A stretch of DNA of 23,459 bases. Source: a virus. This document shows positions 5,040 through 21,889 of this stretch, piece by piece. The stretch lies in the IMG/VR virus record IMGVR_UViG_3300043469_000998, positions 1-23,459 of that record; one strand, written 5' to 3'. Position 1 is the stretch's first letter. The number at the start of each line of letters is the position of its first letter. Under the pieces are notes generated by a model. The model had not been told where the DNA came from. It saw nothing but the letters and a program-made list of their open reading frames with translations, and searched no databases. A program made the translations under genes and the position numbers.

Positions 5040-5930
5040 ATGGGGAACGGGATGCTGAAGGTGCTGATTGGCGACTGCATCGAACGGATGAAAGGGATCG
5101 AAACAGGGTCTGTGAACTGCTGCGTGACATCTCCGCCATACTTTGGGCTGCGGGATTATGGAATGAACGGCCAGATCGGCCTTGAACGCCGCGCGCCTGA
5201 GTATGTTGCAAACCTTGTCTCTGTGTTCTCTGAGGTCGCGCGTGTTCTTCGTGATGATGGCGTTTTGTTTGTCAATATCGGGGATACCTATGCTGGCTTT
5301 AAGGATGGGAAATTCCCCCCGCAAAGTTCAAGTAACGGAAATCAGCGCGGTATGCCGGTCGATGGTGCGCCGCACCGCAGCAAGAAACTGCTGCAACTGG
5401 ACGGCTTCAGGAACAAGGAAGCTATGGGTATTCCGTGGCGGTTTGCTTTTGCGATGCGGGATGCTGGTTGGTATCTGCGTCAAGAAATTATCTGGGAAAA
5501 GCCGAATTGCACACCTGAGAAGGTGCGTGACCGCTTTGTAAAGTCTCATGAACACATCTTCATGTTCACTAAGCGGGATCGGTATTGGTTTGACGGTGAC
5601 GCGGTTAGAGTTTCGGCAGAAGGTGGAGGGACAAAACTGCGCGGTGACGTGTGGACCGTCCCCGTCAGTTCCTACAGTGGCGCGCACTTCGCGACATTTC
5701 CGCCCGATCTGATCGAACCCTGTATTCTTGCCGGGTGTCCAGAAGGCGGTGTGGTGCTTGATCCGTTCGGCGGTAGCGGAACCACGGCAGGGGTGGCGCT
5801 GAAGCATGGTCGCCGCGCGATCCTCTGCGAATTGAACCCTGAATTTGCGGCGATGGTTGATGATCGCGTTTTTCGTATCTCTGGCGTTGCGATTAACGCA
5901 ACGCAGCGCGATCTGTTTGGGGGCCGCTAA
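5040..5930 (+). CDS. Second DNA methyltransferase, beta class
   Basis: The 296-residue protein has TSPPYFGLRDYG (motif IV, from residue 30) near the start and the S-adenosylmethionine-binding DPFGGSGTT (about 241-249) near the end, so it is a beta-class N6_N4_Mtase. The extended TSPPYFGLRDYG form is frequent in phage adenine or N4-cytosine methylases. The internal region, about 75-200, holds its own target-recognition segment and differs from that of the first methylase, so the two probably modify different sequences. Only the motifs and the last dozen residues (NAT-x-x-DLF) are alike. ATG 5040 has AGGGAACG before it; ATG 5052 is possible. It is followed directly by the primase gene. Confidence 0.9.
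   Translation: MGNGMLKVLIGDCIERMKGIETGSVNCCVTSPPYFGLRDYGMNGQIGLERRAPEYVANLVSVFSEVARVLRDDGVLFVNIGDTYAGFKDGKFPPQSSSNGNQRGMPVDGAPHRSKKLLQLDGFRNKEAMGIPWRFAFAMRDAGWYLRQEIIWEKPNCTPEKVRDRFVKSHEHIFMFTKRDRYWFDGDAVRVSAEGGGTKLRGDVWTVPVSSYSGAHFATFPPDLIEPCILAGCPEGGVVLDPFGGSGTTAGVALKHGRRAILCELNPEFAAMVDDRVFRISGVAINATQRDLFGGR
5886..5902. promoter_or_regulatory. 17-bp operator-like repeat inside second methyltransferase gene, site 6
   Basis: GTTGCGATTAACGCAAC lies in the coding sequence 29 bases before the primase start and differs from site 4 at one central base. It has no recognisable promoter. Both methylase genes carry this element at the same place relative to their stop codons. Confidence 0.55.
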
Positions 5931-8486
5931 ATGGCTGACATCGACAGGCTGCGGCAGGAAAACCCGCTGCATATCGTTGCTGCTGATTTCGGAGTGCGTC
6001 TTGAAAAGGACGGCCATGAATTCATCGCCTGCTGTCCTCTGCACCAGGAAGACACGCCTTCGTTCACGATCTTTCCCGGCAAGGATGGGGTCCAGCGGTT
6101 TCACTGCTTCGGCTGTGGGGAAAAGGGCGACGTTCTGGATTTTGTCCAGAAGATGAAAGGCGTCGATCTCAAGGAAGCGATCCGCGTCCTCGGTGGTGAA
6201 GTGCGCCGTGAAAACGTCCAACCGCGCCGGATTGCGGAACCGGTGGACATCTACGCGGGGATCGTGCCGCTGGCTCCTGCCGGTGAGATCAAGGCCGGTC
6301 GGCGGGTGAAACTATGGAACCCGAAGCGCGACAAGTTCGGGACGATCACGCCTTCGATGGCGTTCCCGTATCGCGCGGCGGATGGCAGTCTGATCGGCTA
6401 CGTCCTGCGCCACGATCTTCAGGACGGCGGCAAGGAAACCCCGATGGTGATGTGGTGTCGCCTGCCTGACGGGTCCACGGAATGGTGCCGGTATCCGTTC
6501 CCGAAGCCGCGCCCGCTGTTCGGCCTGGATCGTCTGGCCGGTGGAAAACAGGTGATCATCTCCGAAGGTGAGAAGTGCGCCACGGTCGGGGCCGCGATCA
6601 CGGGGCGGCTGTTCATGTCATGGGCAGGGGGAACCTATGGCATCCATCATGCAGATTGGTCGCCCCTTGCCGGTCGCTCGGTGGTGATCTGGCCGGATGC
6701 CGATGGGCCGGGGCTGGAAACCGCGTCGAAGATTGCCGCGATCCTGCACGGTATGGGCTGCACGGTGAAGGTGATGGATGTCCAGGACAAGCCGAAGGGC
6801 TGGGACATCGCCGATGCTGCCGATGAAGGCTGGTCGCGGGATGAGATCGATGCGTTCATGCGCGCGCGTGTGCGGGCCTGGGAACCTGATGGGGGCGATA
6901 CCCCGCCCGAACCGCCTGCACCGCCTCCTGCGCCCGCTCCTGAAGCCCCAGAGGGTATTCCTGAGCCGCCACCGCGTGATTACGATGCTGGCGATTGGGT
7001 GCCTGATCCCTACGGCGATCTGGGCGAAGTGGAGATGGACAAGTCCGGCGAGTTGATCGAGTTCGACAAGTCGAAGCGGCGCGCGGTGCCTGCGTCTGGC
7101 AGATCGAAACCCGGCATCCCATACCGCGCGTGGGGCGGCGATGCTGACTTGATGCGGGAGTGGGCGTTCCTGTCGTCAGAAGGCGTGTTCTGTCACGTCC
7201 ATACCGGGGATCGTATGGCGCGCGGGCCGTTCGATCTGGTGATGGTGAATGACACTCCGATGATCGAAACAATCGACGGCAAGGGCGAAACGAAAAACGT
7301 GCGGTTTCCTCCGTCGAAAACGCTGATCGATTTCTGCGACGGTCTGGTGGCATCTCGGACAATGTATCGGCCTGACGTGGATGCGATGACGGTCTGGGTC
7401 GATGGGGTGCTGCACCTGAATTCATATCTGCCTGCATCGGTGCCGGTGGCTGATCCTGACTGGCAGTCGCATGACGCTTGGCGGGCGGCGCGGGATCACA
7501 TCCACAATATCCTGCCCGATGGGGCTGATACGATCATTAAGTGGCTGGCGCACAACGTCCAGCATCCCGGCAAGAAAATCCTCTGGGCACCTATCCTCGT
7601 CGGTCAACAGGGCGACGGGAAAACCACAATCGGGTCGATCTTGCAGCAAGCGATGGGGCGGCGGAACGTGGTCGCGGTCGGGCCGGAAGAACTGTTCTCC
7701 GATTTCACAAGCTGGGCTGAAGGCGCGGCGGTGCGGGTGCTGGAAGAACTGCATCAGGACGGTGTGAATAGATCGTCAGTCGTGGAAAAGCTGAAAGCGC
7801 CTATCACGAATTCCGAAGTGCCGGTGGTGGGCAAGGGCGAGAAAGGCCGCTCGGTCGTGAACGTGACGAATTACATGGGCCTGACGAATAACATGGACGG
7901 GCTGCGGATACCTGAAGGGGATCGGCGGTTTGGCGTCTGGAAGACACGGTTCAAGGATCGCCCGCAAGTGCTGCGGGAACTGACGAAAGAATACTGGCGG
8001 CGGCTGCACGATGCCATCGGGAAGCACCCTGAAGTCCTGCGCGGCTGGCTGCTGTCCGTCGATCTGTCTGATTTCGACAGGTTCGATGCGCCGTCTATGA
8101 CGGATGCGAAAATCGCCATGATCGAAGCGTCCCGGTCGCCGCTGTCTGCGGACATTCGTGAGGCTATCGCGCTGGGCGGGCTGGGCGTCGGGCGCGACGT
8201 GCTGGTGACTGACATGCTGAACGATCTGGTGAAGGCGATGGGCGGGCGGTCTGCCTCGACCACAACGATGTCCAGCATCATGCGGGAAATGGGATGGGCG
8301 CGTCTGGACAAGACCGTGAAGTGGAACGGCAAGCCTCGCCGGGTTTACTATCTGCCGGGGCCGTGGTGCGAAGGGCTGGAAGGCGCTGATCTGGCTACGG
8401 TGCTGCGGGAACGGTTGCAGGATACCGAACTGGATCGGCCGGAAATTGATGACAGGCAGGGCGTGATGGACCCTGCGCTGTGGTAG
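5931..8486 (+). CDS. DNA primase-helicase: CHC2 zinc finger, Toprim and DUF5906/SF3 helicase
   Basis: The 851-residue protein starts with a CHC2 zinc finger (CPLH at 35-38, CFGC at 59-62) that reads the primer start site. A Toprim domain follows, with SEGEKC (about 210) and VIWPDADGPG (about 251-260) supplying the metal-binding acids. A Pro-rich linker (about 325-350) leads to an ATPase domain with Walker A GQQGDGKTT (about 558-566), acidic motif EELHQDG, and GLTNNMDGLRIPEGDRRF, the DUF5906/superfamily 3-like helicase signature. It should both unwind and prime at the fork. It is one of the largest genes here and ends the early operon. Both activities look intact. No polymerase follows, so the host replicase is probably recruited. 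Confidence 0.92.
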   Translation: MADIDRLRQENPLHIVAADFGVRLEKDGHEFIACCPLHQEDTPSFTIFPGKDGVQRFHCFGCGEKGDVLDFVQKMKGVDLKEAIRVLGGEVRRENVQPRRIAEPVDIYAGIVPLAPAGEIKAGRRVKLWNPKRDKFGTITPSMAFPYRAADGSLIGYVLRHDLQDGGKETPMVMWCRLPDGSTEWCRYPFPKPRPLFGLDRLAGGKQVIISEGEKCATVGAAITGRLFMSWAGGTYGIHHADWSPLAGRSVVIWPDADGPGLETASKIAAILHGMGCTVKVMDVQDKPKGWDIADAADEGWSRDEIDAFMRARVRAWEPDGGDTPPEPPAPPPAPAPEAPEGIPEPPPRDYDAGDWVPDPYGDLGEVEMDKSGELIEFDKSKRRAVPASGRSKPGIPYRAWGGDADLMREWAFLSSEGVFCHVHTGDRMARGPFDLVMVNDTPMIETIDGKGETKNVRFPPSKTLIDFCDGLVASRTMYRPDVDAMTVWVDGVLHLNSYLPASVPVADPDWQSHDAWRAARDHIHNILPDGADTIIKWLAHNVQHPGKKILWAPILVGQQGDGKTTIGSILQQAMGRRNVVAVGPEELFSDFTSWAEGAAVRVLEELHQDGVNRSSVVEKLKAPITNSEVPVVGKGEKGRSVVNVTNYMGLTNNMDGLRIPEGDRRFGVWKTRFKDRPQVLRELTKEYWRRLHDAIGKHPEVLRGWLLSVDLSDFDRFDAPSMTDAKIAMIEASRSPLSADIREAIALGGLGVGRDVLVTDMLNDLVKAMGGRSASTTTMSSIMREMGWARLDKTVKWNGKPRRVYYLPGPWCEGLEGADLATVLRERLQDTELDRPEIDDRQGVMDPALW

Positions 8487-8686
8487 GCGGCGCTGATTTG
8501 CCCGAATTTCACCTGCACGACTATGAAGCCATCGCGGAGCAACAGGTGCCGGTCCTCCCGGTCGATAAGGGCCATGTTTGTCAGCTTCCTCACAGCGTTG
8601 GAAGCCTTGAAGGATGCCGCGCGATATTCGGCTGGGTCAACCTTCTTCGCGGAAGGTTGTCTCTCCTAACGGAAGGGGATGCGACA
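8487..8686 (+). other. 200-base segment before the endolysin, coding status unclear
   Basis: Three frames are open over part of this stretch. A GTG at 8480 overlapping the primase stop would give the endolysin a 69-residue N-terminal extension. A different frame (ATG 8574) gives a 31-residue peptide starting MFVSFLTALEALKDA. The minus strand is open from about 8668 to 8503 (…ALIDREDRHLLLRDGF) but without a good start signal. None has a clear Shine-Dalgarno. I leave it as a leader region. Confidence 0.35.
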
Positions 8687-9460
8687 ATGGAAATTTGGAA
8701 GGGCAAGGCCAAGCGTATCGAAGACATCGATCTCCCGCGCGTCGGTCATATGATCGGTGTGGGCGAAGATGAGGTTCATGCGATCCTGGATGTGGAAAGC
8801 GCCGGATCGGGGTTCGACAGCAAGGGCCGCGTGAAGATGCTGTTTGAGCCGCATGTGTTCTGGCGGCTGCTCGGCAAGGGGCCGAAGCGCGATGCTGCTG
8901 CAAAGCAAGGGCTGGCATATCCGAACTGGCGGCGCGACTATCCGAAGGACAGCTTCCCGCGCCTGATCGCGGCGATGAAGATCGATCCTGAGATTGCACT
9001 GCGATCCGCGTCGTGGGGCCTCGGCCAGATCATGGGGTTCAATCACGCGGCGGCTGGGTTTTTGAGTGCGGCGGCGATGGTGAAGGCGTTTGCCGATGAC
9101 GAAGATCAGCATCTGGAAGCGATGATTAGGTTCATCAAAGCGAACAAGCTGGATGATGAACTGCGCCGTCACGATTGGGCCGGGTTTGCGCGCGGCTACA
9201 ACGGGCCGGGGTTTGCGAAGAACGGATACGACAAGAAGATCAAGGCGGCGTTCGACCGTTGGCAGAAGATCAGGGATACCGAATGGTCGCCTGCGCCTGC
9301 GATCTCGCCCGTGCGGACTGCTGAAGCCATCCCGGTCGGGCCGGATGAAGCTGCTGGTCGCGCCGGTGGTTTTGGCGCGCTGATCGCTCTGATCACGGGC
9401 TTGCTGGCTGCTGGCCTGGGCGCGTTCTGGGATCGGGTGGTCGCGCTGTTTGGGGGTTGA
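8687..9460 (+). CDS. Endolysin, N-acetylmuramidase (DUF3380-type) with C-terminal membrane segment
   Basis: The 257-residue protein matches the N-acetylmuramidase family: catalytic Glu in LDVESAGSGF (Glu37), LFEPHVFWRLL, NWRRDYPKDSF and SWGLGQIMGFN, then GFARGYNGPGFAKNGYDKKI. It cuts the glycan strands of peptidoglycan to release progeny. ATG 8687 is chosen because GGAAGGGG lies 9-16 bases upstream and the family normally begins close to this point. After a Pro/Ala linker (about 200-226) comes a hydrophobic segment, GALIALITGLLAAGLGAFW, followed by RVVALFGG, which predicts a C-terminal membrane anchor. No separate holin is adjacent. Its stop lies within the -35 of the small-RNA promoter. Confidence 0.88.
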   Translation: MEIWKGKAKRIEDIDLPRVGHMIGVGEDEVHAILDVESAGSGFDSKGRVKMLFEPHVFWRLLGKGPKRDAAAKQGLAYPNWRRDYPKDSFPRLIAAMKIDPEIALRSASWGLGQIMGFNHAAAGFLSAAAMVKAFADDEDQHLEAMIRFIKANKLDDELRRHDWAGFARGYNGPGFAKNGYDKKIKAAFDRWQKIRDTEWSPAPAISPVRTAEAIPVGPDEAAGRAGGFGALIALITGLLAAGLGAFWDRVVALFGG

Positions 9461-13394: not shown

Positions 13395-13658
13395 TTATTC
13401 GGACTTTATCATTTTCGCGATCCGCTCCTTCGACACGCCCAGCGCCATCGCTGCCGCCCTGCGTGACGGATACCGAACGCCTCCGATCTCGACCTGCACG
13501 GCGATCCTGCGGCCACGTGGCGACATCCCTACGCGGTCTTGGGTGCCTGCCTCAAGGGCCTTCTGGACGGTCGTGTAGTGAACCCCTAGCGCGGCGGCTG
13601 CGGCCTTCTGCGACGGATACAGGACGCCACGGATTAGGGTCGGGACAGGATCGAACAT
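13395..13658 (-). CDS. Tandem NUMOD-like helix-turn-helix protein
   Basis: The 87-residue protein holds two copies of one module: GVLYPSQKAAAAALGVHYTT (about 11-30) and GVRYPSRRAAAMALGVSKER (about 60-79). The pattern Y-P-S-x-x-A-A-x-A-L-G-V-x-x-x-x-(I/V) is that of NUMOD1-type modules, the DNA-binding parts of GIY-YIG and HNH homing endonucleases, here without a nuclease. It probably binds DNA at two half-sites. ATG 13658 follows directly after the upstream stop. It is the last gene of the first leftward operon and ends nine bases before the next promoter. Confidence 0.7.
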   Translation of the reverse strand: MFDPVPTLIRGVLYPSQKAAAAALGVHYTTVQKALEAGTQDRVGMSPRGRRIAVQVEIGGVRYPSRRAAAMALGVSKERIAKMIKSE

Positions 13659-13913
13659 TCAAATATCCTCGCCTGCGATCCGCGCCGTGTTTACCTCGGC
13701 TGGGCTGATCCCAGAAAACCTGAGTAAATACCCGTCCTCCACCTTCACGGAATTCACCGCCAGCGTTCCCGGCCTATTCCGTTTCCAGTTGGCGAACGCA
13801 CTCATGTAATAAACCCGCGCCTGTGCCGTGCGGACTTTTAGGACATCGCCCGCGCGGCGTTTATGGAATTCGTATTTGATCTTCGGGCGGCGCTGTCTCG
13901 TTTCAGTCACCAT
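13659..13913 (-). CDS. Hypothetical protein, member of a local paralogous family
   Basis: The 84-residue basic protein contains KYEFHKRRAGDVLKVRTAQ, then R-x-x-x-x-SAF-x-x-W and DGYLLRFSGI. The same framework (Y-[ED]-F-x-K-x-R-x-G-x-x-L-x-V-[KR]-T … AF-x-x-W … GY-x-x-x-F) is present in the 104-residue protein upstream, so the two are duplicates, with a possible third in the 94-residue protein. A compact alpha/beta nucleic-acid-binding fold would fit the charge. Its start lies within the end of the upstream gene. Confidence 0.6.
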   Translation of the reverse strand: MVTETRQRRPKIKYEFHKRRAGDVLKVRTAQARVYYMSAFANWKRNRPGTLAVNSVKVEDGYLLRFSGISPAEVNTARIAGEDI

Positions 13914-14116
13914 TCCTTAAACTCCCCGGCATCTTCGTTCTCTTCATATCCGGCGTGATATTCCGCGATCTCTTCAGGTGTCAGATCGGTGATCTCGACG
14001 CGCCCGATGCCGTCCAGCCATTTGTGCGGCCTGATCTGGCGGTGGTAATAGCTATCCGCCCTGCCACGATCATACGGCGATCCGTGGGGCGGTAGTGCGA
14101 CTGGGGTGCAGGTCAC
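13907..14116 (-). CDS. Small hypothetical phage protein
   Basis: The 69-residue product has PHGSPYDRGRADSYYHRQIR followed by PHKW and then ITDLTPEEIAEYHAGYEENE. The first block, Gly-Ser-Pro-Tyr-Asp-Arg-Gly-x-Ala-Asp-Ser-Tyr-Tyr, recurs in small accessory proteins of many phages of unknown function; the second is an acidic amphipathic helix. The GTG start overlaps the previous stop (GTGA). Nothing suggests enzymatic activity. Confidence 0.65.
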   Translation of the reverse strand: MTCTPVALPPHGSPYDRGRADSYYHRQIRPHKWLDGIGRVEITDLTPEEIAEYHAGYEENEDAGEFKEW

Positions 14117-14397
14117 GATTTTCCCCCTCTCTCAATCTGGATCGGCGCGTCTTCTTCTCGGTCAAACGGCCATTCGTCGCCATAGATTACGACCAGCCAT
14201 CCATCAATGCCGGATACGCTCTTTCCGCGAACGACAGACGTTCTCAGGTTCAATCCCTTCCTTCTGATCTTCGTTGATGCTGCGGCCCTGCAATCATCAA
14301 CCTCTTTTCTGGACGTGCAGAACATCAAGACACCAGGGCGCAAGTCCTGCATGGACACGCAGTTCTCGACTGTCATGCGGGGATAATTGTCGGCCAT
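14113..14397 (-). CDS. Hypothetical protein, possible distant paralogue
   Basis: The 94-residue protein contains QDLRPGVLMFCTSRKEVDDC, then KIRRKGLNLRTSVVRG and GIDGWLVVIYG. D-x-R-P-G, a Thr after six residues, a helical Arg-rich stretch and a final hydrophobic beta strand line up with the better matched pair at 13659 and 14399, so it may be a third diverged copy. The ATG is two bases after the upstream stop. Function unknown. Confidence 0.6.
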   Translation of the reverse strand: MADNYPRMTVENCVSMQDLRPGVLMFCTSRKEVDDCRAAASTKIRRKGLNLRTSVVRGKSVSGIDGWLVVIYGDEWPFDREEDAPIQIERGGKS

Positions 14398-14398
14398 C

Positions 14399-14713
14399 TC
14401 AGATGTCCCCCGGTGCGTCGCACTTCTCAGCCGTCTTCAGGGCGTCATGCGACTTCGACTTGAACCATATCCGGTATCCCGGCCCCTTGGGGTCTTCCTC
14501 GCCAACCTGCGCGCTGACGGCATAGGCTCCATCCCTGCGCGGGGTCAGCTTCTTTTCGACACCCCGAAGCACCCAGTAGCGGAACGCTGCCAGCACCCGG
14601 CATCGCTCGTCGTGCGTCTTCACATGCAGGCTTGCCCCTGGGCGTATCTTGTCGAAGTCATATCGGGCGCGCGCCTTCTTGTGATCCTCTGCTACGTCAT
14701 ATTCAAAATCCAT
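14399..14713 (-). CDS. Hypothetical protein, founding copy of a local paralogous family
   Basis: The 104-residue protein begins MDFEYDVAEDHKKARARYDF and continues DKIRPGASLHVKTHDERCRV, LAAFRYWVLRG and GYRIWFKSKS. It shares the Y-[ED]-F-x-K-x-R-x-G-x-x-L-x-V-[KR]-T framework with the 84-residue protein at 13659. It is the first gene of its operon; the ATG has GAGGT a few bases upstream, and the promoter with operator lies immediately before. First position behind an operator suits an early-expressed regulator or host-directed protein, but no activity can be assigned. Confidence 0.65.
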   Translation of the reverse strand: MDFEYDVAEDHKKARARYDFDKIRPGASLHVKTHDERCRVLAAFRYWVLRGVEKKLTPRRDGAYAVSAQVGEEDPKGPGYRIWFKSKSHDALKTAEKCDAPGDI

Positions 14714-14726
14714 GTTGACCTCATGT

Positions 14727-14743
14727 GTTGCGATACCAGCAAC
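14727..14743. promoter_or_regulatory. 17-bp operator-like repeat on first leftward operon, site 9
   Basis: GTTGCGATACCAGCAAC is, in reverse complement, identical at 16 of 17 positions to site 3 at 241-257. A further half-site (CCGCAACAC, 14748-14756) follows in the promoter spacer. Confidence 0.7.
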
Positions 14744-14769
14744 ATCACCGCAACACGGCCTTTAGTCAA
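14742..14769 (-). promoter_or_regulatory. Leftward promoter of the paralogue operon
   Basis: On the minus strand TTGACT (complement of 14764-14769) precedes TGATGT (complement of 14742-14747) by 16 bases, or GATGTT by 17. The -10 overlaps operator 14727-14743. The start near 14735 is about 20 bases before the ATG at 14713. Confidence 0.5.
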
Positions 14770-14784
14770 TACGGTATCTGCATA

Positions 14785-14826
14785 AACGCTTCAGTTCTTA
14801 GGGTAACAAGCTGAAGTTAAAGCGTT
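14785..14826. repeat. Bulged inverted repeat
   Basis: AACGCTTCAG (14785-14794) pairs with CTGA (14811-14814) and AGCGTT (14821-14826), with a six-base bulge on one side. It marks the edge of the A+T-rich gap and could be a protein site or an RNA hairpin. Confidence 0.4.
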
Positions 14827-14928
14827 CAAAGTCAAGCGTAAGCAAGAGATAACTTTAGAATTGTGGAGTAACAGGTCAGACTTTGTGTAGAAACCCATTT
14901 TTCTCTTTATTTTCTTATACTTAGATAT

Positions 14929-15050
14929 AAAGGGAATGTTAGAGATAGGGTAGGGGGTTCAATGAGAGAAGTAAGAGAGATAAAAAAAAGGGGGAAGAGA
15001 GACAATACTACAGTGGAGTAGGAATGGCCTCTCTAACATTCCCTTTTTTT
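14929..15050 (+). terminator. Long inverted repeat ending in a T run; possible 120-nt RNA
   Basis: AAAGGGAATGTTAGAGA (14929-14945) and TCTCTAACATTCCCTTT (15030-15046) are perfect 17-base complements 84 bases apart, and the second arm runs into seven T. Read rightward it is a factor-independent terminator shape with an unusually long loop. TATACT (14916-14921) lies seven bases before the first arm, so an RNA starting there would begin and end with the two arms. The loop is strongly purine-rich and contains a mini-ORF. Confidence 0.55.
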
Positions 15051-15170
15051 GTAAAGCCAAAACTGAACCGTTCAGTTTAAATGTGGCGATCTCAGCAACA
15101 CGCCCCCCAAATTCCACCTGACAACCTTCAGGCATGTATTCCTTGGGCCAGAGAAAAGCCGTCGATCTGA
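14962..15170 (+). other. Three back-to-back mini-ORFs
   Basis: ATG 14962 (19 codons, MREVREIKKRGKRDNTTVE) has TAGGGGG before it and stops at 15021. ATG 15024 (18 codons, MASLTFPFFVKPKLNRSV) has GGAGTAGGA before it and stops at 15080. ATG 15081 follows at once (29 codons, starting MWRSQQHAPQIPPDN) and stops at 15170, 36 bases before the terminase small subunit start. The first two have good Shine-Dalgarno sequences. They may be leader peptides or chance. Confidence 0.3.
15060..15078. promoter_or_regulatory. Perfect 19-bp palindrome, TetR-operator-like
   Basis: AAACTGAAC-C-GTTCAGTTT has nine perfectly paired positions on each side of one central base. TGAACxGTTCA-type palindromes are typical of TetR-family operators in alphaproteobacteria (recalled, not searched). 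No TetR gene is in the window. Confidence 0.55.
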
Positions 15171-15206
15171 TCGGCTGCTGGATAGAAAACTAGACGGGGT
15201 TAGAAA

Positions 15207-15473
15207 TTGGCGCTGGGAAAGAAAACCGGTGGTCGGAAGAAGGGCGTCCCGAACAAGATCAACGGGCTGCTGAAGGATGCGATCCTCAAGGCTGCGGAAG
15301 ACGCGGGCGGCGATGGTGGCCTGATCGGATACCTGACGCTTCAGGCGCATGAAAACCCGGTCGGGTTTCTGACGCTGCTGGGCAAGGTTCTGCCGATGCA
15401 GGTGAACGCCACGCATGAGGGCGCGGTGTCGATCATCGTGGATACTGGCGTTCCGAGAGCGCCGGATGAATGA
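15207..15473 (+). CDS. Probable terminase small subunit
   Basis: The 88-residue basic protein begins ALGKKTGGRKKGVPNKING, the 'KKTGGRxKGTPNK' N terminus found in small proteins directly before phage large terminases, and continues with a helical stretch (LLKDAILKAAEDA, GLIGYLTLQAHENP, FLTLLGKVLPMQ). It should recognise phage DNA and load the large subunit. The start appears to be TTG 15207 with ACGGGG nine or more bases upstream; no ATG fits. The large-subunit gene begins inside its last codons. The assignment rests on position and N-terminal pattern; no classical helix-turn-helix is obvious. Confidence 0.65.
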   Translation: MALGKKTGGRKKGVPNKINGLLKDAILKAAEDAGGDGGLIGYLTLQAHENPVGFLTLLGKVLPMQVNATHEGAVSIIVDTGVPRAPDE

Positions 15474-16779
15474 TCTCAGCCCCAGCCGCGTCCAGACGGG
15501 ATATGATCCTCACAGGTTCCAGCGTGAGATACACTCGCGCCTGAAGCGGTTTTCGGTTCTTGTCTGTCATCGCCGGTTCGGAAAGACGTTCCTTGCAATC
15601 AATGCGCTGATCGATGCCGCGCTGCGGACGCGCAAGGAAAACGCGCGCTATGGCTACGTCGCGCCCTATCTGAAACAGGCCAAGCAGGTAAGCTGGGATT
15701 ACCTGAAGCGGTTCGCCTATCGCGTTCCTGGCGTGTCTGTGAATGAAAGCGAATTGTCGATCCTGTTTCCGAATGGATCGATGATCCGGCTTTATGGATC
15801 GGACAATGGCGAAGCGATGCGCGGCGTTTATTTCGATGGCGTCGTGATCGATGAGGTTGCCGACTGCCGTCTTGAAACTTGGCCAGAGATTATCCGCCCT
15901 GCGCTGGCAGATCGCAAAGGCTGGTGCCTTTTCATTGGAACGCCAAAGGGCATGAACCAGTTTTTCGAGTTGTATCAATACGCGCAGAAAAATCCTGAAT
16001 GGTATGCGGGCATGTATCGCGCCGATGAAACAAATCTGATCGATGAGAAAGAATTGCAGGCTGCGAGGGAAATCATGTCGGAAAACCAATATCGCCAAGA
16101 ATTCTTGTGCGACTTCACTGCATCGGCTGACAACGTGCTGATCAGCATCGATCTGGTGTCTGACGCCATGAAACGGCATTACCCAGCGCGCGACTTCGAA
16201 CATGCTGTTCGCGTGATCGGTGTCGATGTGGCCTATCACGGCGATGACAAGTCTGTGATCTTCGGTCGCAAGGGCCTTGTGGGGATGCCGCCTGTCGTCA
16301 TGGCGAAGGCTGATCCGATGGCCGTGGCCGGTCGCCTGCTGGCCGTCATGGAACGGTTCAAGCCTGACGCGGTGTTTGTGGATGACACGGGCGGATATGG
16401 CGCTGGCGTGATCGCTCGGCTGCGGGAACTCGGACACTCGCCCATCGGTGTGAACTTCGGGCAACGTGCCGATGATACCAAGTATCGGAACAAGCGAACC
16501 GAGATGTGGTTTCGAACGCGCGATTGGCTGCGAGATGGCGGCGCGCTGCCGGATGACATCGACCTGAAGAACGATCTCGTCAGCCCGACATATCGCGTCC
16601 CATCGACAGGCATCATCGAACTGGAAAGCAAGGACAAGATCAAGGAACGGCTGGGCCGGTCGCCTGATCTCGCTGACGCTTTGGCGCTGACCTTCGCGTT
16701 CAACGTGGTGCCTAATCGCGCCTCGGTTCATGGCGGCAACCATCATCAGGCACAAGTCGATTACAACCCGCTGGGATGA
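15466..16779 (+). CDS. Terminase large subunit
   Basis: The 437-residue protein has the packaging ATPase motifs: Walker A CHRRFGKT (34-41), Walker B VVIDEVAD (about 127-134) and a coupling motif FIGTPKG soon after (about 151-157). A RNase H-like nuclease domain follows, with acidic residues in VIGVDVAYHGDD (about 250-261), FVDDTGGYGAGV (about 304-315) and PDLADALAL (about 400). It cuts concatemeric DNA and pumps it into the procapsid through the portal. ATG 15466 overlaps the end of the small subunit and begins at the usual family start. All catalytic residues seem present. Confidence 0.93.
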   Translation: MNDLSPSRVQTGYDPHRFQREIHSRLKRFSVLVCHRRFGKTFLAINALIDAALRTRKENARYGYVAPYLKQAKQVSWDYLKRFAYRVPGVSVNESELSILFPNGSMIRLYGSDNGEAMRGVYFDGVVIDEVADCRLETWPEIIRPALADRKGWCLFIGTPKGMNQFFELYQYAQKNPEWYAGMYRADETNLIDEKELQAAREIMSENQYRQEFLCDFTASADNVLISIDLVSDAMKRHYPARDFEHAVRVIGVDVAYHGDDKSVIFGRKGLVGMPPVVMAKADPMAVAGRLLAVMERFKPDAVFVDDTGGYGAGVIARLRELGHSPIGVNFGQRADDTKYRNKRTEMWFRTRDWLRDGGALPDDIDLKNDLVSPTYRVPSTGIIELESKDKIKERLGRSPDLADALALTFAFNVVPNRASVHGGNHHQAQVDYNPLG

Positions 16780-16783
16780 TGAG

Positions 16784-17032
16784 ATGCCGAAAGAAGACAT
16801 GATCCGAATGAACGCTGCTGCGAATGGTCGCTGGATGTTGGCGATGCTGTTCGCGATGAACATGATCCTCGGTAGCCTGCATCTGGCCTTTGCCTCGGTC
16901 CTGATCCTGGCGCTGGGCTACGTCGCCGATACGCTGCTGCTGCTGTCGTATCGCCGCGCTGCTCTGGCCGTCGGTATGGCCTGCATCGTCTCCACTGCCA
17001 CGCTGATCGTCGCGACGTGGCTTTCCTTCTGA
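16784..17032 (+). CDS. Small multi-span membrane protein, holin candidate
   Basis: The 82-residue protein from ATG 16784 has three hydrophobic stretches: WMLAMLFAMNMILGSLHLAF, VLILALGYVADTLLLL and ALAVGMACIVSTATLIVATW, separated by short loops, with a charged N terminus and an Arg-Arg pair between spans two and three. Size and topology suit a class I holin, which would be the partner of the endolysin; its place between terminase and portal is unusual for one. It starts four bases after the terminase stop. Assignment as holin is inference. Confidence 0.5.
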   Translation: MPKEDMIRMNAAANGRWMLAMLFAMNMILGSLHLAFASVLILALGYVADTLLLLSYRRAALAVGMACIVSTATLIVATWLSF

Positions 17033-17054
17033 CCTCTAACCTGTGGTGATCCCC

Positions 17055-17276
17055 ATGTGCACGATGCGCCAACCGAAGATGCCTGATCCTCCTGCGCCGC
17101 CTGAGATCGTGCCGCCGACGCAGATGGCCGCGCCTCAGACGCCTGAAGCCGCGTCTCGCACGGCTGGCAGTCAACAGCGCAACCGGATGCGGTCTGCCGC
17201 GCCCACGATCCTGACTTCAGGAAGCGGCGCGCTGTCTACCGCTCCGACTGACAAGAAAACATTGCTCGGTGCCTGA
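17055..17276 (+). CDS. Small proline-rich phage protein before the portal
   Basis: From ATG 17055 the 73-residue product begins MCTMRQPKMPDPPAPPEIVP, followed by TQMAAPQTPE, then a basic part (QQRNRMRSAAPTILTSGSG) and a short tail. Proteins of the form 'MC…PK.P.PP.PP…R.R…S.T.LTSG' lie immediately before portal genes in many podoviruses, role unknown; they may be virion assembly factors. A GTG at 17043 is an alternative start. Its stop overlaps the portal start region. Confidence 0.65.
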   Translation: MCTMRQPKMPDPPAPPEIVPPTQMAAPQTPEAASRTAGSQQRNRMRSAAPTILTSGSGALSTAPTDKKTLLGA

Positions 17277-17277
17277 T

Positions 17278-18972
17278 ATGCAAACCAACGCCCCGGCGAA
17301 TGAAAAGCAGGTGCAGTATCACCGCCGCCGCCTTGAAGAACTCAAGTCGGTTCGTTCGCCGTGGGAAGCGACGTGGCAGGGTCTGGCCGATCACATTGAA
17401 CCGACGCGCCTGCGTTTGCAGTCGATCAACGAAGGGCCGATCTCGCGCGCGAAAATTTTGGACAGTAGCGCGACCTTCGCCCTGAAGACACTGGCATCGG
17501 GGATGCACTCAGGCATCACATCGCCCGCGCGGCCTTGGTTCCGCCTGACCACGTTCGACCCTGACCTGAAGGATTACGGGCCGGTGAAAACGTGGCTGTC
17601 TGCTGTCGAACAGCGGATGCGCGAAGTGTTCCAGAAGTCCAACGTGTATCCCTCGTTCCACACGGGCTATGGCGACCTCGGCCAGTTCGGGCAGTCGTGC
17701 GGCATCCTGTCGGAAGACACGGATACGGTCGTGCGGATGCAGCAACTGCTTCATGGGCGGTTCTGGATCGCCCGCGATGAGAAGGGCCGCACCACGACGC
17801 TGTATCGGCAGTTCAAGTGGTCGGTGCAGAGGATCGTGAACCGGTTCGGGTATGATGCCTGTTCGAAGGCGGTGAAGGATCAGTGGGATCGCGGGAACTA
17901 CGGCAAGACGTTCGACATCTGCCACGCGATTGAACCGCGCCTGTCGCGTGAGCCTGGCCGGATCGACAAGCGGAACAAGCCGTTCCTGTCGAACTATTGG
18001 GAACACAACCACGCGAACGATGACAAGCTGCTGGAAGAAAGCGGGTTCGATGAAAACCCGATCATCGCGCCGGGGTGGGAAATCGCGGGCGATGATGACT
18101 ATGCGAACTCGCCGGGGCAGATCGCGCTGGGCGATGTGAAGATGCTTCAGGTGGAACAGACGCGGAAGCTGGAAGGGATCGACAAGATCGTTCGCCCGCC
18201 CATGACTGGCCCCACGTCGATGCGGAACAACCCGACATCGCTGCTTCCCGGTGCTGTGACCTATGTTGATGATCCGAGTGGCAAGGGGTTCCGTCCTGCG
18301 ATGGAAGTGAACCTGCGGCTGTCGGAACTGGCTGCTGACATCCGCGAAACGCAGGAACGGATCAACCGCGCGTTCTATGCCGACCTGTTCCTGATGATCA
18401 GTCAGATGGAAGGCATCCAGCCGCGCAATCAATTCGAGATCGCGGAACGGAAAGAGGAAAAGCTGCTTGCGCTGGGTCCAGTGCTGGAAAACGTCTATGG
18501 TGGCCAGCTTGGGCCGGTGATCGACCGGACGTTCAACATCCTTGAACGTCGCCGGGAACTGCCGCCGCCGCCGCCTGAACTGGAAGGCGTTGATCTTCAG
18601 ATCGAATACATCTCCATCTTGGCGCAAGCCCAGAAGGCCGTGGCGACCGGCGCTGTTGAGCGGGTGACGGCTTACATCGGCAACCTCGCTGCGGTGAAGC
18701 CTGACGTGCTGGACAAGTTCGATGCTGATGAAGCGGTTGATCAGTATGCCGACATGGTGGGCGCGCCGCCGTCGATCATCGTGCCGGATGACAAGGTGCA
18801 GGAAGCGCGGCAAGCCCGCGCCCAGCGTCAACAGATGGCAGAGAATGCCCAGATGGCCGCGACCGTCGCGCCCGCGATGAAGCAAGGCGCTGAAGCTGCG
18901 GCTGTCATGGCCGAAGCGCGGAATGCGCCCGGTGGCCAAGGGCTGCTGTCTCAGTTGGGGATTAGCGGATGA
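17278..18972 (+). CDS. Portal protein, head-to-tail connector type
   Basis: The 564-residue protein matches the podovirus head-tail connector family (T7 gp8, epsilon15 gp4, BPP-1): RRRLEELKSVRSPWEATWQG near the start, then LASGMHSGITSPARPWFRL (about 75-95), GYGDLGQFGQSCGIL, and a long helical C terminus of Gln, Ala and Met-rich sequence. Twelve copies form the ring through which DNA enters and to which the tail attaches. ATG 17278 is preferred; GTG 17269 in the same frame, overlapping the upstream stop, is possible. It overlaps the next gene by four bases (ATGA). Confidence 0.9.
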   Translation: MQTNAPANEKQVQYHRRRLEELKSVRSPWEATWQGLADHIEPTRLRLQSINEGPISRAKILDSSATFALKTLASGMHSGITSPARPWFRLTTFDPDLKDYGPVKTWLSAVEQRMREVFQKSNVYPSFHTGYGDLGQFGQSCGILSEDTDTVVRMQQLLHGRFWIARDEKGRTTTLYRQFKWSVQRIVNRFGYDACSKAVKDQWDRGNYGKTFDICHAIEPRLSREPGRIDKRNKPFLSNYWEHNHANDDKLLEESGFDENPIIAPGWEIAGDDDYANSPGQIALGDVKMLQVEQTRKLEGIDKIVRPPMTGPTSMRNNPTSLLPGAVTYVDDPSGKGFRPAMEVNLRLSELAADIRETQERINRAFYADLFLMISQMEGIQPRNQFEIAERKEEKLLALGPVLENVYGGQLGPVIDRTFNILERRRELPPPPPELEGVDLQIEYISILAQAQKAVATGAVERVTAYIGNLAAVKPDVLDKFDADEAVDQYADMVGAPPSIIVPDDKVQEARQARAQRQQMAENAQMAATVAPAMKQGAEAAAVMAEARNAPGGQGLLSQLGISG

Positions 18973-21582: not shown

Positions 21583-21889
21583 GGTCATCGCAGTTTCGCG
21601 CGGTTACTATGGCCGCATGATCCGTGACATCGGGGACGTGTTTGACGTTCCCGATGAGATCATGGCCGATGAAGGTCTGCGCCCGTCGTGGGTGGAGATC
21701 GTCGGCAAGGCCCCTGCGGAACCGGCTGCTGCTGAACCGGAAAAGCCTGCGAAGGCGAAGCCGGGACCGAAGCCGAAGCCTGCGCCGTTCGCTGATGCGC
21801 CTGAACCTGTTCGGGTGCAGAACGAGATCAACACCGCTCTCGGCACGGCTGAACCCGATTGGGTTATGCCTGCCCGTGGCGACATCTGA
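21575..21889 (+). CDS. Small structural-region protein with Lys/Pro linker
   Basis: The 104-residue protein begins MAKVIAVSRGYYGRMIRDIG and DVFDVPDEI, a short SH3-like beta stretch seen in phage head proteins placed after the cement gene ('KVIA…GYYG…IR.GD.F.VP'). Then follows a disordered Pro/Ala/Lys part (EPEKPAKAKPGPKPKPAPFA) and a short end. It overlaps the cement gene by eight bases. I would place it in the virion or in head completion; no firm family name. Confidence 0.65.
   Translation: MAKVIAVSRGYYGRMIRDIGDVFDVPDEIMADEGLRPSWVEIVGKAPAEPAAAEPEKPAKAKPGPKPKPAPFADAPEPVRVQNEINTALGTAEPDWVMPARGDI

Follow-up and report, generated by a model that had tools for sequence, protein, structure and literature searches.

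A stem-loop of about 100 bp located 3′ of the replication gene is required in the crenarchaeal plasmid pRN1; together with the replication operon it is sufficient, and it still works when relocated within the plasmid (Berkner et al. 2014, PMC4234260). In the sections of that work drawn on here, pairing within the stem-loop is conserved but its sequence is not, one change in the stem was tolerated only if a second change restored symmetry, the authors found that the protein does not bind the stem-loop specifically, and phage BIP-1 is suggested to have an origin of the same kind. PICI origins, as described in the part of PMC6092414 used here, lie 3′ of the initiator gene and comprise two sets of iterons flanking an AT-rich region, and the Rep protein of SaPIs is described as recognising its origin via its C-terminal domain (PMC7581432, in part). 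For the NrS-1 genome, the part of PMC7102993 used here gives two copies of an 8-nt recognition sequence, one per strand, as the proposed origin. The element examined here lies in a stretch of viral DNA of 23,459 bases, hereafter called the window, and shares with the PICI/SaPI and pRN1 origins the combination of inverted sites or a large stem with an AT-rich or unpaired region. We consider it to be probably the DNA replication origin of this virus. A replication structure was among the options listed in an initial annotation of the element, and it is the one best supported, since the same plan recurs beside related primases.

The 17-bp perfect stem with arms 84 bases apart that was described in the initial annotation was confirmed by its coordinates (Table 1), the arms AAAGGGAATGTTAGAGA and TCTCTAACATTCCCTTT being perfect complements. 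In 100 dinucleotide-shuffled windows, perfect inverted repeats with up to 150 nt between the arms reached maximum lengths of 0-15 bp; the real window, with 17 bp, exceeded all 100. It is also the sole inverted repeat in the whole window with a score of at least 12 and a spacer of 50-140, the runner-up scoring 11 at 21765. The -10-like TATACT and the T run reported earlier are both present: TATACT (14916-14921) lies inside the AT-rich core, seven bases ahead of the left arm, and a run of seven Ts (15044-15050) starts within the right arm. The loop is purine-rich, as had been stated. The RNA fold of 14929-15060 had an energy of -29.9 kcal/mol (z -2.3), and the single-stranded DNA fold of the 118-nt element a z of -3.9. 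A search of the element against Rfam gave nothing at gathering scores, the surrounding gap had no DNA match to phage and plasmid sequences, and the window held no extra copy of the arm with up to 3 mismatches allowed. The likeness of GGAGTAGGAA to the relatives is based on their consensus before the right arm, tggagg.gg.a..ggaAaaA, which was read from the profile described below. An ORF of 19 codons is open within the spacer (14962-15021), with AGGGGG just ahead of its ATG; in locus L061 its length and frame are kept, with two amino-acid changes. Downstream of the element lies a palindrome, AAACTGAACCGTTCAGTTT (15060-15078), possibly an operator, whose 15-base core was found in 21 stretches of viral contigs, twice in L295 and, in L289, about 1.9 kb before a TerL-like match. 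A reading of ATATAAAGGGA as a promoter of a phage RNA polymerase was dropped, there being no other close copy within the window.

The element is situated in a 493-bp gap between a divergent cluster of minus-strand ORFs (13395-14713) and the candidate for the terminase small subunit (TerS) at 15207. Because the gap is flanked in this way, the element does not have the position of a terminator for a preceding plus-strand gene. The gap is AT-rich, with 39-40% G+C in 300-base windows versus 60% for the window as a whole. A protease and a major head protein are also among the proteins around the element, and the virus is podophage-like. Two N6/N4 DNA methylase genes (943-1767 and 5040-5930) lie in the helicase-to-primase region.

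Table 1. Parts of the element and neighbouring genes, in window coordinates
Feature	Position	Strand	Remark
Left arm	14929-14945	+	Proposed initiator site, inverted relative to right arm
Right arm	15030-15046	+	Proposed initiator site
Purine-rich spacer, 84 nt, 79% purine	14946-15029	+	Purine-rich spacers recur in primase-linked elements
AT-rich pyrimidine core TTTTTCTCTTTATTTTCTTATACTTA	14898-14923	+	Proposed melting site; 26 bases identical in L310; profile match 14893-14965
GGAGTAGGAA	15015-15024	+	Directly ahead of right arm; similar G/A-rich words before right arm in relatives
GGGTAACAAG	14801-14810	+	Possible degenerate upstream site (weak); TAACA at 14804, which may resemble relatives' GTAAC repeats
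GAGTAACAGG	14866-14875	+	Possible degenerate upstream site (weak); TAACA at 14869
Primase-helicase	5931-8486	+	Proposed initiator; CHC2 zinc ribbon and DUF5906
Muramidase	8480-9460
First ORF of divergent minus-strand cluster	14399-14713	-	Homologues flank gap in L061, L204, L092
Terminase small subunit (TerS) candidate	15207-15473	+	phrog_11043 (unknown function); from position and overlap with TerL
Terminase large subunit (TerL)	15415-16779	+	phrog_2; exchanged in G001
Portal	17269-18972		About 45% identical to epsilon15 and BPP-1 portals

The plan of the element, in which an AT-rich pyrimidine core is followed by the left arm, the purine-rich spacer and the right arm, recurs just 3′ of related primase-helicase genes. 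Leaving aside a sister contig, 70 of 71 primase relatives were considered; in 67 of them the sequence 3′ of the match extended for 400 nt or more. An inverted repeat scoring at least 10 (spacer 50-140, up to 600 nt 3′ of the primase match) was present in 52 of these 67 loci versus 24 of 271 control stretches, which were taken from the same loci and are mostly coding DNA, and the best repeat beat all 40 of its own shuffles in 42 of the 67; these counts include near-identical loci (e.g. L365-L367, L399/L400 and L372/L375). An architecture scan of 4.76 Mb for inverted repeats with a score of at least 12, a purine-rich spacer and a pyrimidine-rich lead returned 22 matches. Sixteen of them, in 13 loci (L360, L361, L362 twice, L365, L368, L377 twice, L382, L389 twice, L391, L399, L402, L411 and L418), follow a primase match at a distance of up to about 450 nt; 13 share the strand of the primase and three are on the opposite one. 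The remaining six comprise a sister of the window (L166), L095, L147 and three loci from Pleomorphomonas (L225, L226 and L227) whose arms are very long. The inverted repeats in these three measure 29-44 nt (spacers 69-108), stand near prophage genes, and look like chromosomal repeat elements unrelated to the one studied here.

Arm sequences vary from phage to phage, and in many cases each arm of the inverted pair consists of a 7-8 base unit that is doubled (GGTTACAGGTTACAG, AGGATCGAGGATCGAGA, AAGGTCGGAGGTCGGAG); at several loci (e.g. L361, L364 and L365) an outer iteron pair outscores the one that encloses the purine-rich spacer. Beyond the arms, arm k-mers had no further copy in the window and one in its sister L061 (chance about 1.1), and at least two in all 28 other loci given, the two each of L393 and L418 being near chance. 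That relatives' arms mostly resemble inverted copies of short repeats outside the stem points to DNA sites, not an RNA helix. In the window itself, nothing element-like was found 3′ of the primase gene, and the element is 6.4 kb away.

A DNA profile was built without the window or its sisters; 35 elements from the 67 loci satisfied the arm, purine and pyrimidine criteria, and 33 were left after removal of duplicates. Against the window this profile gave one match at E≤10 (14893-14965, plus strand, E 6e-4, 13.8 bits), and it also matched the Chi-like phages chi (E 1.7e-6), Rostov 43 (E 2.9e-8) and sal3 (E 9.7e-6). For a second profile, L363, which shares the exact 26-nt core, was removed; the best window match was then 14894-15034 (E 0.015, 9.3 bits), the next being meaningless at E 6.8, and shuffled controls reached at most 2.6 bits in 60 windows and 2.8 bits in 200 gaps. 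A third profile of 37 sequences, again without L363, dropped six loci with doubtful arms or limits that had been part of the first two (L372, L375, L385, L387, L409 and L418), and gave a window match at E 0.0043 with a bias term of 14.2 bits. The match on the window is weak and, given this bias, partly compositional. A search of 389 other loci (4.29 Mb) with the second profile gave 23 matches at E≤1, all of them in primase loci, in Chi-like records beside the primase, or in L095/L324, a single contig in which the match lies upstream of the terminase; the window's sisters and L204 stayed above E 1 in this search.

Among relatives of the virus the AT-rich core is conserved in L204, L061 and L095. 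The nearest prophage relative is a Rhodobacteraceae prophage (L204, portal 83%), whose homologous gap gives a significant alignment (score 52 versus a best of 41 in 300 shuffles); the similarity peaks over the block TTTTTnTnTTTnTTTTCnTATAnTTA and what comes right after it. The L204 gap has neither the 17-bp stem nor inverted arms and no fold excess (z -0.05). Among 394 genomes of L204's family, the ORF family adjoining the gap was found only in L204's own genome. Locus L310, which was found via the core block, carries all 26 core bases of the window immediately 3′ of a gene for a primase 36% identical to the window's; the arms of this locus differ (GGTTACAAGTTACAG and CTGTAACCTGTAACC, spacer 81). 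Chi-like phages have unannotated DNA next to the primase that this L310 region matches (best E 4e-7). In L095 (TerL 71%) the core block stands upstream of the terminase with the arms AAGGTTCCCAGTTTC and GAAACTGGGAACCTT. L090/L171 (portal about 67%, TerL 73%) possess a divergent gap with the same plan and other arms, CGTTAATAG and CTATTAACG, 97-98 apart; an AT-rich core, a purine-rich spacer and GGTTACATG/CATGTAACC repeats were read by eye in this gap, which beyond the minus-strand ORF gave a weak profile match (E 0.07-0.16).

The primase of Paracoccus phage KLEP18-1 is the best match among phage records (47.7%), and the gene order of this phage in the element region resembles that of the window. 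A weak profile match (E 0.024-0.03) lies between its minus-strand cluster and the end of the record, and, with the record taken as circular, precedes TerS at 133; TAGGAACGCTTGTAACC is present there, with no long arms. No profile match was obtained in L092 and L093 (TerL 73%). Repeat arrays in both orientations occur upstream of the terminase in L095 (1-345, GGTTCCCAGT) and L093 (850-1090, GTGACGCAC), and are likely to be iterons of other specificity. Across 66 sequences upstream of TerL, the window included, long stems occur but have no common sequence, and searches of viral contigs with core patterns returned mostly AT-rich chance matches. Cumulative GC skew, computed for KLEP18-1 and a sister phage (G001, see below), made no turn at the element and tracked gene orientation. 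Compensatory change in the arms, proposed earlier as a check on the element, is suggested by L090/L171, L095 and the primase loci, where the arms differ in sequence and are mutually complementary, which favours a functional inverted repeat; it does not extend to L204 and KLEP18-1, where arms are missing.

The exact arm pattern occurs in 84 stretches of viral contigs, with both arms in two contigs only, both from sister phages. One (IMGVR_UViG_3300042473_000385) is 99.3% identical to the window over 7.1 kb; the other, G001 (IMGVR_UViG_3300042363_000610, 48,555 bases), carries both exact arms. DNA similarity to G001 covers the minus-strand cluster and the element, ends at window position 15146 and returns only past TerL, with a 59-base piece at 16719 and then from 17034. 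Across the gap (14714-15146) there are 7 mismatches in 430 aligned bases and none in the arms, while the two stretches flanking the gap are 92.5% and 94.7% identical; the ORF adjoining the gap is 98.4% identical, and the high conservation thus includes that gene. Both TerS and TerL are replaced in G001, the TerL match being 41% over residues 234-454 only. The exchange is a clean swap of the terminase module between otherwise close phages (window 15146-17034 versus G001 from 19145 onward; L161, L166), with one break point directly after the element.

This exchange bears on the most speculative suggestion of the initial annotation, namely a packaging RNA, or more broadly a packaging (pac/cos) site read by the terminase. 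The position before the terminase genes is all that speaks for it. Because G001 keeps the element and the upstream genes with a different terminase, the element is not tied to the packaging motor; in addition, the terminase of this phage has two subunits, Rfam gave no match, and the relatives' elements adjoin the primase. A packaging RNA is therefore not supported, and we regard a packaging role of either kind as extremely unlikely. Equally hard to credit is a sponge for small RNAs or ribosomes, or a coding leader: the spacer is indeed purine-rich with Shine-Dalgarno-like stretches, and its 19-codon ORF is open and of equal length in L061, but the element class as a whole is purine-rich, and coding would be supported by two sequences that differ by two amino acids.

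A leader RNA of the terminase (late) operon deserves more attention, although we judge it unlikely. Such an RNA would start after TATACT and stop or pause about 120 nt on at the T run, with the stem as an attenuator or terminator overridden by a phage factor; lambda pR′ and tR′ are the model for an override of this kind. The placing of TATACT and of the T run on either side of the arms, the plus-strand structural operon that follows and the RNA fold (z -2.3) all agree with it. The 84-nt loop, however, is far from that of a standard intrinsic terminator, a short-loop GC-rich hairpin with a T run, and the element was absent from a terminator scan that accepts loops of 3-8 only; scanning gave no -35 match near TATACT. 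Moreover, the stem is missing in L204, and primases in unrelated contexts have the same plan on their 3′ side. Neither TATACT nor the T run is evidence of a transcript, because TATA-N-T-TA belongs to the conserved core and A/T flanks recur in relatives. Regulatory DNA with no replication role is improbable as well. Here the arms would bind a repressor or activator of divergent promoters, with looping between two operators, as would suit the divergent gene arrangement, the palindrome at 15060-15078 and weak HTH-like matches in one small minus-strand ORF; yet at some loci with a related element 3′ of a primase (e.g. L310 and L365) a divergent gap is not required, and an operator pair needs neither an AT-rich core nor a purine-rich spacer. 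The element may nonetheless be transcribed as well as serving as an origin.

A protein that could act on such an origin is encoded in the window. Residues 401-851 of the primase-helicase were modelled (pLDDT 89.9), and the model found its best PDB fold matches in the C-terminal region of the NrS-1 polymerase (E 4e-21), followed by the SaPI5 primase-helicase (Pri-Rep) and PriRep1 (E about 1e-9); by sequence, a PDB search returned two NrS-1 'Primase' sequences only. In the model, a winged helix seems to be formed by helices 337-386 together with the strands that come next (396-407). The window thus encodes a primase and SF3-type helicase with a C-terminal DNA-binding fold, as judged from DUF5906 and the fold matches, the winged helix being our own reading of the secondary structure. 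We propose that this C-terminal domain would recognise the two inverted 17-bp arms and that two helicase rings would assemble face to face there. Next, the core (14898-14923) and the spacer would melt, and the primase part would make the first primers on the exposed strands. The arms may be either two duplex binding sites or an extruded hairpin of the sort argued for in pRN1.

With no extra iterons, an initiator 6.4 kb away and arms missing in L204 and KLEP18-1, the window copy is an atypical member of its class, and would be either a minimal origin with one strong site per side or a stem-loop of the pRN1 kind. The loci compared suggest a module common to many phages. We advance only tentatively, as a possibility somewhat short of an even chance, that tailed phages with a DUF5906 primase-helicase, the Chi-like phages included, share one origin module, recognisable and for the most part unannotated, of which the window copy would be a stripped-down and relocated form with a single perfect inverted pair replacing iteron arrays. 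If the origin reading is right, a pyrimidine core, inverted arms and a purine-rich spacer 3′ of a primase gene would locate origins in many phages, where they are apparently unannotated so far, and the pairing of initiator and origin would become directly testable; the speculation on a packaging RNA would be replaced by a reading that can be tested with a cloned fragment of about 300 bp.

Compared with the systems described at the outset, the element resembles pRN1 in having one large inverted repeat that goes with a protein combining primase, SF3 helicase and winged-helix domains, as far as PMC4234260 was drawn on here. That source gives pRN1 a 21-nt stem and a 58-nt loop, predicted at 75 °C, compared with 17 bp and 84 purine-rich nucleotides in the window; the pRN1 stem-loop is described as directly 3′ of its gene, whereas the element is 6.4 kb from the primase gene, and the pRN1 primase as archaeo-eukaryotic, whereas the window protein has a zinc ribbon of the CHC2/DnaG type. 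NrS-1 has the polymerase closest in fold to the window's helicase part; its 8-nt site does not occur exactly in the window, where near copies are fewer than expected by chance. Bordetella phages BIP-1/BPP-1 share the portal family of the window (44.6%). In BIP-1 (L431, 26300-29900), perfect 22-bp arms built of a tandem TTGCCTCGTT repeat, with a 60-nt spacer, lie 467 nt 3′ of the replication gene; we regard this repeat as a candidate origin for BPP-1-like phages, and it may differ from the stem-loop drawn in PMC4234260. Its arms and core are unlike the window's, and the second and third profiles had no match there at E≤1. Chi-like phages (Chivirus, Rostov 43) have a core of the window type and a purine-rich spacer beside a related primase, unannotated, and carry many GTTACAAG/TTGTAACC copies whereas the window has none; searches of an open-access library turned up no account of this module for Chi-like phages, which does not prove that there is none.

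To the PICI and SaPI origins, as far as their description was drawn on here, the element is related by two sets of sites with an AT-rich region and by an initiator fold of the SaPI5 Pri-Rep kind. Those origins have repeated iterons directly 3′ of the gene; in the window neither several iterons per side nor that position was found, the element having one perfect site per side, 6.4 kb away. The alpha protein of satellite phage P4, by its description in the part of PMC4234260 used here, likewise unites initiator, helicase and primase in one repeat-binding protein. If the shared module proposed above is real, the arm sequences would change together with the binding domain of the initiator, and the window copy would be a natural intermediate between the iteron origins of PICI and P4 and the stem-loop origin of pRN1.
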